The position numbers and the translations under genes are program-made. Shown here in pieces: positions 7,629 to 10,385 of a stretch of 10,385 bases of DNA. Source of the DNA: Chloroflexota bacterium (GTDB taxonomy: Bacteria; Chloroflexota; Chloroflexia; QHBQ01; JADMIH01); the NCBI GenBank assembly GCA_015478675.1, contig JADMIH010000140.1:1-10385 (forward strand). Reading direction: 5' to 3'. Each line of letters starts with the position of its first letter. Positions within the stretch are counted from its first letter, which is position 1. A model generated the notes under the pieces. The model had not been told where the DNA came from. It was given only the letters and a program-made list of their open reading frames with translations, and ran no database searches.

Positions 7629-8192
7629 ATGCTATCTGAGGATCAAACCAAGACTATGCAGAGTATGGCAAGGCAAAGCCAGAGCAACCTTGATGAGCTG
7701 AAGCCGCTTTCGGGCAAAGACTTTGAGGTAGATTTGCTCAACAAGATGATAGAGCACCACCAGAGTTCAATTGGCATGGCCAAGCTGGCGCCCGACAGGG
7801 CCAATCACCAGGAGGTCAAGGATACAGCCCAGAAGATGGTAAGCGCACAGGGTAGCGAGATAAAGAAAATGACAGGTTGGCTGCAAGAGTGGTATGACAC
7901 GGCCCCAAAGCAGGGAAGCATGCGCAAGGTGCCCGGCATGAGCATGTCGGAGATGACGGCCATGCTGCAAAGCCTGAAAGGTGATGACTTCGATAAGCAG
8001 TTCCTTACTATGATGACAATGCACCACATGGGCGCGATTAAGATGGCTCAACTGGTGCCGGATCGCGCAACCCATAGTGAGTTGAAGACCCTTGCGCAGA
8101 ACATTATCTCCTCTCAGTCGGCGGAGATAAAGCAATTCGAAGGCTGGTTGAAAAGCTGGTACAACATGGAGATAAAGGACGGCTCTGCCTAG
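7629..8192 (+). CDS. Tandem DUF305 (ferritin-like) protein without signal peptide
   Basis: This 187-aa protein consists of two copies of the DUF305 helical unit. Copy 1 (about 27-90) has MIEHHQSSIGMA with H43/H44, and copy 2 (about 116-179) has MTMHHMGAIKMA with H132/H133. Each is followed by matching APDRANH/VPDRATH blocks and WLQEWY/WLKSWY ends. A Met-rich stretch (about 98-112) joins them. The paired His and Met residues are likely metal ligands; the DUF305 protein CopM of Synechocystis binds copper, so metal binding is a reasonable inference. Many family members are exported, but this one has no signal peptide. GGAGG (7619-7623) sits 5 nt before the ATG, and no alternative in-frame start exists upstream before a TAG. 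It is probably transcribed alone. Confidence 0.88.
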   Translation: MLSEDQTKTMQSMARQSQSNLDELKPLSGKDFEVDLLNKMIEHHQSSIGMAKLAPDRANHQEVKDTAQKMVSAQGSEIKKMTGWLQEWYDTAPKQGSMRKVPGMSMSEMTAMLQSLKGDDFDKQFLTMMTMHHMGAIKMAQLVPDRATHSELKTLAQNIISSQSAEIKQFEGWLKSWYNMEIKDGSA

Positions 8193-8223
8193 CCAGGTGA
8201 GGCTATAAAGTCGTGGATATGGC

Positions 8224-8253
8224 AGATGAGGAGTGGCACACCACTCCTCATCT
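8224..8253 (+). terminator. Perfect 13-bp hairpin after the DUF305 gene
   Basis: AGATGAGGAGTGG (8224-8236) and CCACTCCTCATCT (8241-8253) form a perfect stem with loop CACA, 31 bp past the stop. No T-run follows. A second hairpin, GGCTATA/TATAGCC (8281-8287/8300-8306), lies just downstream. Together they probably form the 3' end of the transcript. Confidence 0.6.
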
Positions 8254-8401
8254 ATTGACTGCTCCGATCAGGAGTGCAGTGGCTATACCATTGCCTTGTT
8301 ATAGCCGCCCTTCATAACACTCATAGCTCCATATACATCCCTGTAAAGCCCCGTCTCCCATGAAGTGAGAGAGAGGTTCGGGGTGCGGGTCCTTCCCCCA
8401 T

Positions 8402-8427
8402 CCCAATCTGAACGCTTACAGATTGGG
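8402..8427. repeat. Hairpin repeat CCCAATCTG...CAGATTGGG
   Basis: A 9-bp perfect stem (8402-8410/8419-8427) with 8-nt loop AACGCTTA. Its core (8405-8424) is the second copy of the repeat seen at 70-89. The block TCTGAACGCTTAC recurs at 8674-8686 with one base difference in register upstream. It borders the larger palindromic repeat cluster. Confidence 0.6.
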
Positions 8428-8446
8428 GGCTACAGGGGCGTCCCTC

Positions 8447-8626
8447 CCCTCACCCCATGCCCCCTCTCCCCTTGTGGGAGAGGGGGTTTGCTCCTGCTGA
8501 GTGCACAGGGGCCTGCCCCTGACGGGGTTACAAGGGTGATTAAAGCCCCCTCTCCCTTGATGGGAGATATACTCCCCAGCAATAAAGCCCCCTCTCCCTT
8601 CATGGGAGAGGGGCATGGGGTGAGGG
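8447..8626. repeat. Composite GC-rich palindromic repeat element (REP/MITE-like)
   Basis: Outer inverted repeats at 8447-8470 and 8604-8626 match over 23 bases apart from one extra C in the left arm. Inside are a hairpin (8460-8470/8476-8486) and two direct 27-bp copies (8541-8567 and 8583-8609) that differ at one base and each contain CTCCC...GGGAG symmetry. A degraded relative may lie at about 8355-8392. No transposase is present. Similar CCCCTCTCCC palindromes are common intergenic repeats in some Chloroflexota and cyanobacteria (general knowledge, not searched). It probably expanded by a non-autonomous mechanism. Confidence 0.75.
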
Positions 8627-8703
8627 TAGGTATGCCCGCACAGTTGCCTCTTGACGATTGCTCCACCCCCAACTCTGAACGCTTACTTGTGAACTCTATT
8701 CTC

Positions 8704-8732
8704 TTGACAGGACCCTTATAATCTACTAATAT
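8704..8732 (+). promoter_or_regulatory. Sigma70-type promoter upstream of the rhodanese gene
   Basis: A perfect -35 TTGACA (8704-8709) is followed after exactly 17 bp by TAATAT (8727-8732), a 4/6 match to the -10 consensus. A perfect TATAAT (8717-8722) also occurs, but its 7-bp spacing makes it unsuitable with this -35. Transcription would start near 8740 and leave a leader of about 180 nt. Confidence 0.6.
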
Positions 8733-8740
8733 AGCTTCGT

Positions 8741-8919
8741 AGACCGGGCGCTCGACCGCCGTGCAACCGGCGGAGAGTGAGAAGCAATCTCACGGGTAAG
8801 CAAGCAGCGATTTAGAGCCGGCGAAAAGAGTAGCTGTACCGGTTGCGCGTCCTCCGCAGCCAGCCGAGCCTGTATATGCAGGCCCACCTTACCGCGCCGC
8901 GTACGTGGGGCTCGTAACT
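8741..8919 (+). ncRNA. Possible structured 5' leader of the rhodanese mRNA
   Basis: The leader can form two mutually exclusive structures. One is a local hairpin, CCGCCG/CGGCGG (8756-8761/8768-8773). The other is a long-range pairing of GTGCAACCGG (8761-8770) with CCGGTTGCGC (8839-8848), with one G-U pair. A second hairpin, GTGAGA/TCTCAC (8777-8782/8788-8793), lies between. I do not recognise a known riboswitch class. The alternative pairings would fit a regulatory leader, but GC-rich DNA can produce such pairs by chance. Confidence 0.25.
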
Positions 8920-9705
8920 ATGAGTGAAACACCCAGAAAAAAGGCTTCAGGGCGCAAGGTTTCCTACGGTGCTGCAAAGCAGCGCCATGACAGCTACGAT
9001 TATGAAGAGAACTCCGACGACGATTACTTGCCTCTGCAAAAGCGTAAACCTCAGAGTAAGAGCGGCGCATATCGTGGTAAAGGGGGTAGTGCGAGAGAAG
9101 GCGCACCTCAGAGTAGAGGGCCGCTGCCCAAACGCGACCTCTCCCCGTACATACTAGGGGCGTTGGTAGGAGCCTTATTGGTTGTTCTTACGGCGCTGAT
9201 ATATCTCCTGGGCATCAACAACACAACTCCTGTGGCCGGTACACAAAGCCTTCCCAGCGACCAACCTGGCAGCCAGCAGCTTCAGTCTCCTGTTGCGGGC
9301 GATCCCCCGCGCATGTCACTGGTTGACTTCAAAGCATTATACGATGATCCGGCTAAGCGCCCGCTTATTATAGATGTGCGCGCCAAAAGCGCATACGACC
9401 TGGGGCACATAAAAGGTGCAATCTCTTTCCCTGAGGCTGATGTGGACGCCAGGGCTAACGAGCTGCCGAAGGACAAGTTGATCGTAGCCTACTGTCAATG
9501 ACTGGACGAGTCGGAAAGCGCCAGTGTGGCGAAGCAACTTCATGATGTATATAACTTCAGTTACGACAACCTGAAGGTCCTATTAGGCGGCTGGAACGCC
9601 TGGAAGCAGGCAAATAGCTCAGATGCAAAGGGCTATCCAATCGAGGTGACAACCAGCAGTTCCCCCTCTACTCCCGCTAACTCTGTGCCAGGTACCGTGC
9701 CTTGA
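8920..9705 (+). CDS. Membrane-anchored rhodanese with in-frame TGA in the active-site loop (selenoprotein candidate or nonsense mutant)
   Basis: Read to the first stop (9499-9501), the product is 193 aa. Read through that TGA it is 261 aa, ending at TGA 9703-9705. Residues 1-73 form a charged cytoplasmic tail, about 76-99 a membrane helix (LGALVGALLVVLTALIYLLG) and about 131-242 an extracytoplasmic rhodanese domain. Rhodanese hallmarks before the TGA are LIIDVRAKSAYDLGHIKGA (149-167) and catalytic-type C192 in VAYCQ. After codon 194 (TGA) the domain continues in the same frame with LDESESASVAKQL, then LLGGWNAWKQA and GYPIE, the usual end of the fold. The truncated form would lack part of the catalytic loop and the last helices and should not fold. 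Family members often read YC-x-C/W-P-x-E here, so the TGA falls at a Cys or Trp position. The ATG at 8920 lacks a strong ribosome binding site (GGGG at 8907-8910); a GTG at 8905 is an alternative. The promoter is at 8704-8732. Confidence 0.75.
9519..9531 (+). other. Weak bacterial SECIS candidate after the in-frame TGA
   Basis: CGCC (9519-9522) and GGCG (9528-9531) form a 4-bp stem with loop AGTGT. A G is the second loop base, 23 nt past the TGA. These values fall in the range described for bacterial SECIS elements, but the stem is minimal and would occur by chance fairly often. A competing pairing, ACTGG/CCAGT (9501-9505/9521-9525), also exists. Confidence 0.2.
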
Positions 9706-9786
9706 TCTCTGACAGCTCTCAGATGCCGAGCACCGATGACCTGGCGCTCCATTATAGGCGCTAACGGTGAAACGCGGTGGTGATAA

Positions 9787-9824
9787 ATGAATAGCCCGAC
9801 GTCTAGAGGCATCGGGCTATTCAT
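9787..9824. terminator. Bidirectional-looking terminator hairpin
   Basis: ATGAATAGCCCGA (9787-9799) and TCGGGCTATTCAT (9812-9824) form a perfect 13-bp stem with a 12-nt loop. It lies between the convergent rhodanese gene and the minus-strand YHS gene and could end both transcripts. The remaining spacers (9706-9786, 9825-9976) show nothing else. Confidence 0.7.
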
Positions 9825-9976
9825 CTTGCGGCGATAGCTCTGCTGACGGTATACGAGCGGAGTATCTCTCACCCTTACACATACATCTTCTCTACGCCTG
9901 ATTTGAAGCTTCAGCGGTTCTGCCAGTATTTCATGCTCGATGGATACACTATCGAGGATGAAACACTGCTCCCGCG

Positions 9977-10177
9977 CTAGCTGCTGGAGCCGCCACCCTG
10001 ACTGGTGGAGCTTCCCTCATTCTGAGCCTTCTGCACGAAGTCGGCGGGGTTATTGTCGAACGCCCGCTTGCAGCCTGCGCTGCAGAAGTAGTACGTGGTC
10101 CCCCCGTTTTCGGAGGTGTACTGCGCGCTTTCGCTATCTATTGTCATGTTGCAAACCGGGTCTATAACTTTTGCCAT
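9977..10177 (-). CDS. Small YHS-domain metal-binding protein
   Basis: This 66-aa cytoplasmic protein is essentially a single YHS domain (about 4-48) with a Ser/Gly-rich tail. Visible hallmarks are DPVCNM with C9 and M11, and YYFCSAGCKRAF with C32 and C36, which are the likely metal ligands. YHS domains occur alone or attached to heavy-metal P-type ATPases and are thought to bind copper or similar metals. AAGGAG (10185-10190 on this strand) lies 7 nt before the ATG, so the start is secure. It lies 80 bp downstream of another minus-strand gene and may share its transcript. No membrane segment or signal peptide is present. Confidence 0.92.
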   Translation of the reverse strand: MAKVIDPVCNMTIDSESAQYTSENGGTTYYFCSAGCKRAFDNNPADFVQKAQNEGSSTSQGGGSSS

Positions 10178-10257
10178 TGTCTTTCTCCTTTGCTTGGTTA
10201 TCTCCGATTAATAAACCAGGGCCGAGCCAGCCGGTGAGCCAACCCTGCGCTGCCCGC

Positions 10258-10385
10258 TTACTTGCTACTCAGTGGGATAAAGCCGCGTGGGCCGCTATCA
10301 GTGGGCTTGCTATCCGCGGTGCCCGCCACTGGATAACCCTCTTCGTCAAGGATCTCCTTGACCTGATCCAGCGGCAGGGTGCTCT
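10258..10385 (-). CDS. 3' end of a probable heavy-metal-associated (HMA) domain protein (partial)
   Basis: Only the last 41 codons are in the window; the gene begins beyond its right edge. The visible end contains LPLDQVKEILDEEGYPV, which resembles the final strand-helix-strand of HMA (CopZ-like) domains, where an acidic helix is followed by GY-x-V. A hydrophilic tail follows and ends in FIPLSSK before the TAA. The metal-binding CxxC would be upstream, outside the window, so the assignment is tentative. Being next to the YHS gene supports a metal-handling role. Confidence 0.6.
   Translation of the reverse strand, partial: STLPLDQVKEILDEEGYPVAGTADSKPTDSGPRGFIPLSSK

Follow-up and report, generated by a model that had tools for sequence, protein, structure and literature searches.

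Rhodanese selenoproteins with a CxU motif, in which selenocysteine (Sec, U) stands two residues after the catalytic Cys, are already known. As far as the accessible parts of the sources go, the NCBIfam family NF041203 (rhodanese_LYCAU, rhodanese-related (seleno)protein) is the rhodanese-like form 3 with the motif CxU (PMC13188914), a rhodanese-related sulfurtransferase with CxU has been listed (PMC9312934), other rhodanese-type selenoproteins were reported in the Sargasso Sea and GOS surveys (PMC1088965, PMC2398784), and three selenoproteins were counted in Chloroflexi in 2006 (PMC1794560); the main text of a further report (PMC12013277) holds no rhodanese or Chloroflexi terms. In titles and abstract openings of the literature on Chloroflexota selenoproteins and on CxU or two-selenocysteine rhodaneses, with few subscription journals among them, we did not find the branch analyzed here described. 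The window, that is, the whole stretch of 10,385 nucleotides of contig JADMIH010000140.1 from a Chloroflexota bacterium, carries a gene (8920-9705, forward strand) whose product is apparently a membrane-anchored relative of these proteins and is not a listed member of NF041203. Like that family, it has a rhodanese domain with a proposed Cys-x-Sec in the catalytic loop, and NF041203 was the best NCBIfam match for the gene and for the seven relatives scanned. However, against an equivalog cut-off of 115 bits the gene's protein scored 69 and the relatives 66-96, values that may be somewhat low since they were scanned as pieces of 94-127 residues; the protein also differs from the family in its apparently anchored N-terminal extension and in having CQU instead of CAU. 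The Sec or Cys of NF041203 two residues past the catalytic Cys has its counterpart in the in-frame TGA, and relatives of the same context have TGA, more rarely Cys or Gln, at this place. Scoring below the cut-off, the protein is by the curated rule not a member, though it would work like that family; since neither the gene nor the seven relatives reach the cut-off, automatic annotation may keep truncating them. The single-domain rhodaneses GlpE and PspE (NF001195, NF007627) share the Pfam family and have the catalytic Cys, and are not known to have a second chalcogen residue two places past it; the corresponding scores were 20.8 and 18.1 bits, against 102 in each case. NF045694 (TsoB, rhodanese/DsbD fusion-like) is likewise a selenoprotein with a rhodanese-like part, but the score was 24.4 bits where 805 are required, its architecture is different, and its motif is given as UxxxxU in the accessible part of PMC13188914.

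The frame at 8920-9705 starts with ATG at 8920 and has a single interruption, the TGA of codon 194 (9499-9501), which lies two residues past Cys192 (TGT, 9493-9495), the codons at 9490-9501 being TAC TGT CAA TGA. It is followed by 67 further codons up to the real stop, the TGA at 9703-9705, as the initial annotation had noted, and the read-through product has 261 residues, against 193 if codon 194 is a stop. With the TGA read through, Pfam PF00581 (Rhodanese) matched residues 137-231 (9328-9612) over profile positions 5-102 of 102 with an E-value of 4.4e-15 and a score of 56.4 bits against a gathering score of 22.2, which is full-domain membership across the TGA, while the truncated product covers the profile only up to position 69. 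For residues 111-261 an AlphaFold model, computed with Cys for Sec and 36 sequences, had a mean pLDDT of 88.4, with values of 94-98 in the blocks around the site. In this predicted model Cys192 and residue 194, the third residue of the active-site loop (C-Q-U), sit in a loop joining a strand to a helix, and a Foldseek search with the model gave PDB rhodaneses as the top fold matches. The Y-C columns are invariant in the homologue alignment, where C also stands for TGA. Inspection of the translation by eye points to a probable single membrane-spanning segment at about residues 77-98 (9148-9213), preceded by a basic, low-complexity, disordered-looking N-terminus. Because a basic N-terminus is followed by one apparent membrane segment, the rhodanese domain is probably extracytoplasmic.

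We examined the codon at the site in the DNA of relatives, which were collected from genome contigs by similarity to the read-through protein and are more distant than the protein homologues described below. Matches came from 33 of 400 genomes in a draw of the phylum Chloroflexota and from 5/158 genomes in the class of G011, these relatives being 26-40% identical, and from 38/199 genomes in the class of G139, and the class of G022 comprised a single genome; none of these searches gave a close relative of the CQU type. A second search of the phylum with a stricter limit gave 0/400 new, the listed genomes being already known from the earlier draw. The plasmid search gave six records, distant rhodaneses only, and among 65 pattern matches in viral contigs there was no relative. 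Altogether 298 aligned sites were read, sites falling on an alignment gap giving no row, and the 140 rows with a Y/F/H-[C/U]-x context were tallied. TGA was found in 44 of them (the gene itself, 39 distinct sites of relatives and four duplicate fetches), Gly in 71, Thr in seven, Ser in five, Cys and Ala in three each, Asn in two, and His, Asp, Lys, Gln and Arg in one each. The rows with Gly resemble other types of rhodanese with YCxG, and in the 48 rows which also have the family's following context the counts were TGA 44, Cys 2, Gly 1 and Gln 1. Thus, as in a bacterial selenoprotein, UGA is conserved with Cys in some homologues (L006, L012 and L134 at the site), and neither TAA, TAG nor TGG was observed at the aligned codon in any of the 298 rows. 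TGA carriers include Poribacteria (L001), Acidobacteriota (L002, L003, L005) and Chloroflexota (L004), together with genomes from the Chloroflexota searches and with L010 and L016, which from their names we take to be Acidobacteriota. The frame past the TGA is conserved: the mean entropy there in relatives was 1.37, 1.18 and 1.82 for codon positions 1, 2 and 3, and of the 34 residues directly following the TGA 25, 23 and 21 are identical to the protein homologues P0004, P0005 and P0084. The initial annotation had proposed a selenocysteine candidate and had held the intact downstream frame against an old pseudogene; the conserved TGA and downstream frame, together with the covarying hairpin described below, favor both points. 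The conservation of the TGA position, the downstream frame and the hairpin is far beyond chance.

The remaining 158 rows lay outside the Y/F/H-[C/U]-x context, and six of them have TGA, among them L140, a further C-T-U carrier with Ile replacing Tyr, and L132, which reads C-U. In L009/L125, L126 and L132 an insertion stands ahead of the TGA (YCSDCU, YCGRCU and YGDRCU), followed by PP, which may represent a shifted Sec site. L001 (2530-2538), L123 and L135 have TGA at the catalytic Cys too, giving a putative U-x-U active site whose two UGA codons share a single conserved hairpin downstream. Another rhodanese type, seen in L090, L099, L037, L045, L053 and L067, the last four being the rest of the six, has TGA five residues past the catalytic Cys (C-x-x-x-T-U).

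Downstream of the in-frame TGA lies a bacterial SECIS-like hairpin, CGCC-AGUGU-GGCG (9519-9531, forward strand), with a stem formed by 9519-9522 and 9528-9531 and the loop AGUGU at 9523-9527, starting 21 nt after the TGA. The A and U of the loop may pair, leaving GUG. For the comparative analysis redundancy was cut at 85% identity, which left 33 sequences with the gene and 32 without. Across the 32 relatives the alignment of the 48 nt beginning at the TGA is gapless, and columns 20-24 with 30-34 are paired in 160/160 cells; the gene keeps four of these five conserved pairs, the outer one (9518/9532) being G-A here. Compensatory changes on both sides were observed in three of the five pairs (GC to CG; CG to UA or AU; CG to UA), and the covariation score was 0.342 against 0.183 in shuffled alignments and at most 0.105 in slid versions, which pair no more than 58.8% of cells. 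Of the five measures, four were matched by at most 1/500 shuffles, and the fifth, the number of further pair types, was equaled by 70/500 and is not exceptional. RNAalifold returned the identical five pairs with no prior hint. Loop position 2 is an invariant G, and the next base is U in 32/33 sequences. The third codon positions had a mean entropy of 0.41 inside the hairpin, compared with 1.53 before and 1.82 after it, and since they are nearly frozen there, constraint on the protein alone does not account for the conservation. A covariance model built without the gene found the site as its best match in the window (29.9 bits, E 3.4e-7, an E-value which partly reflects coding similarity), the next match scoring 17.1 bits; this second match, at 1126-1175, was set aside as its TGA is out of frame of the ORF at 222-1802.

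The published bSECIS model, in the accessible part of its source, asks for a loop of 3-9 nt, a stem of 4-16 bp, a G at loop position 1 or 2, a distance of 16-37 nt from the UGA and an MFE of at most -7.5 kcal/mol (PMC13188914). The hairpin fits it in its 5-nt loop with G and then U from position 2, its 4-bp stem and its spacing of 21 nt, but the bare hairpin, at -6.6 kcal/mol, misses the energy limit, which is reached with flanks (-8.1 over 9505-9545 and -10.8 over 48 nt). When more flanking sequence is included, an alternative fold can outcompete the hairpin; part of the 5' strand of this alternative would probably be covered by a ribosome standing at the UGA. Compared with shuffles, the stretch past the site folded somewhat better at TGA sites than elsewhere, three cuts of it giving mean z-scores of -0.71, -0.78 and -1.00 for TGA sites (n 33) against -0.33, -0.14 and -0.22 for non-TGA sites (n 88), and single-sequence folding of 67 nt at the gene gave no signal (z 0.11). 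The leader at 8730-8919 folded no better than shuffles. Rfam gave nothing at gathering scores on the contig, and two chance-level matches in 8200-10385 when E-values up to 1 were allowed. When the SelD loci of carrier genomes were scanned as a SECIS reference, the motif search gave three usable sites among 27 loci, and this reference was set aside. With the TGA read as Sec, the branch gains a well-conserved, covarying SECIS-like hairpin.

The protein homologues were taken from a search over about 5.8 billion proteins, of which the best 120 of 138 matches were listed, one of them (P0002) being the gene's own truncated product of 193 residues. Among the matches listed, 115 of the 119 homologues, as seen from the protein ends alone, stop exactly at the position of codon 194, and they come from many separate contigs; the final residue after YC, P0002 included (116/120 matches listed), is Q in 106, S in four, A in three, N in two and D in one. 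One of the other four listed homologues, P0085, ends earlier and is named partial in its record. The short form in which gene finders have recorded 115 of the 119 listed homologues is what would be expected if the TGA were a true stop, the gene encoding a 193-residue protein with the downstream part as a decaying remnant or reached by occasional read-through. But this form breaks off partway through the domain, the frame and the hairpin beyond the TGA are conserved, and under a true stop TAA or TAG would be expected sometimes and occurs in none of the 140 context rows or the 298 rows overall, which makes a true stop very improbable. Read as Sec, the codon would complete a domain which is on record as cut off in at least those 115 listed proteins.

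An even smaller probability attaches to the view that an ordinary rhodanese gene recently acquired a nonsense mutation here, such as TGG or TGC to TGA, or contains a sequencing error. The three rows of relatives with Cys would fit it, as would the Trp at the site in three of the 119 listed homologues, the JGI proteins P0004, P0005 and P0084 (contigs of 1614, 996 and 1016 bases, respectively); but the same TGA stands at 39 distinct sites in several phyla and homologues from many contigs end there, and as a general account this explanation is, on such comparative grounds, already refuted by the conserved TGA. P0004 has another W directly after TTP, near the gene's own VP-TGA end, and then an unmatched tail, which suggests that the source translated a stop TGA as W; the W at the site may have arisen in the same way. 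The initial annotation had taken Trp in relatives as the sign of a nonsense mutation: TGG is absent from the aligned DNA rows, and the W of the three JGI proteins stands on the other side, one of them with these signs of translated TGA. The same three W residues would also fit an organism-wide reading of TGA as Trp (a table 4 type code), to which we assign a negligible probability, since TGA terminates three of the other seven genes selected from the contig's ORF list and Trp is encoded by TGG throughout (24 codons across seven of eight genes), and P0004 itself seems to carry a translated stop; that the seven other genes have no inner TGA is a consequence of how the ORF list is built.

Selenocysteine at codon 194 is thus strongly supported by these comparisons, and the machinery for its insertion was searched for in the genomes of relatives. 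SelB was over the cut-off in 306/400 genomes of the Chloroflexota draw and in 19/19 of those whose fetched rhodanese locus has TGA at the site (E 1.0e-85 or better, lists compared by eye). The chance of this is P about 0.005, or 0.007 if the 310 genomes listed with SelB are taken, and the association is modest because SelB is common in the draw. In a set of 11 genomes SelB was over the cut-off in nine, the exceptions being the TGA carrier G004 and the Cys carrier G006. All 30 chosen carriers had tRNA-Sec over the cut-off, 28 of them at 60 bits or more and G003 and G560 at about 50 bits, and 14 control genomes passed the tRNA-Sec cut-off in five cases and the SelB cut-off in two. SelD was over the cut-off in 27/30 carriers, the exceptions being G005, G479 and G610, and 25 of the 27 SelD genes themselves contain one TGA. 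Most carrier genomes checked therefore hold SelB, tRNA-Sec and SelD.

We consider it very likely that the product of the gene is a rhodanese-domain selenoprotein, membrane-anchored and probably extracytoplasmic, in which hairpin-guided SelB inserts Sec194 to form a probable CxU redox pair. Following established biology, SelB with Sec-tRNA(Sec) would bind the short hairpin with its loop 21 nt past the UGA, and selenocysteine would be inserted at residue 194, giving Cys192-Gln-Sec194 in the active-site loop of a protein whose anchoring is read by eye. In some relatives that stop at this codon the rhodanese carries a fused AhpC/TSA-like or zinc-ribbon domain, and from the CxU motif and these fusions we infer a redox role: the likeliest chemistry is a Cys192-Sec194 redox pair, probably a selenenyl sulfide in a thiol or persulfide oxidoreductase and not a plain single-Cys sulfurtransferase. 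With the anchoring inferred as above, the Sec reading points to extracytoplasmic selenium use in Chloroflexota. More tentatively, and with considerable doubt, the gene may belong to a large misannotated group of rhodaneses, anchored or secreted, whose active site is C-x-U or even U-x-U, some of them AhpC/TlpA-fused, in which one hairpin would serve one or two UGA codons and which would form an extracytoplasmic, selenium-dependent thiol/persulfide relay. Among the protein records, P0111, P0115, P0117, P0118 and P0121 have the same end point and join the rhodanese to AhpC/TSA or thioredoxin-like domains, as seen in proteins only.

Elsewhere on the contig, the ORF at 222-1802 combines an ABC ATPase domain with the histidine kinase domains HisKA_3 and HATPase in one reading frame. 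The rhodanese gene is flanked by a DUF305 gene (7629-8192) and a YHS-domain gene (9977-10177), which may indicate a metal-related neighborhood. Upstream of the gene, at 8344-8637, a 27-nt C-rich repeat occurs four times together with several inverted repeats, and this region resembles a small mobile or structural repeat.
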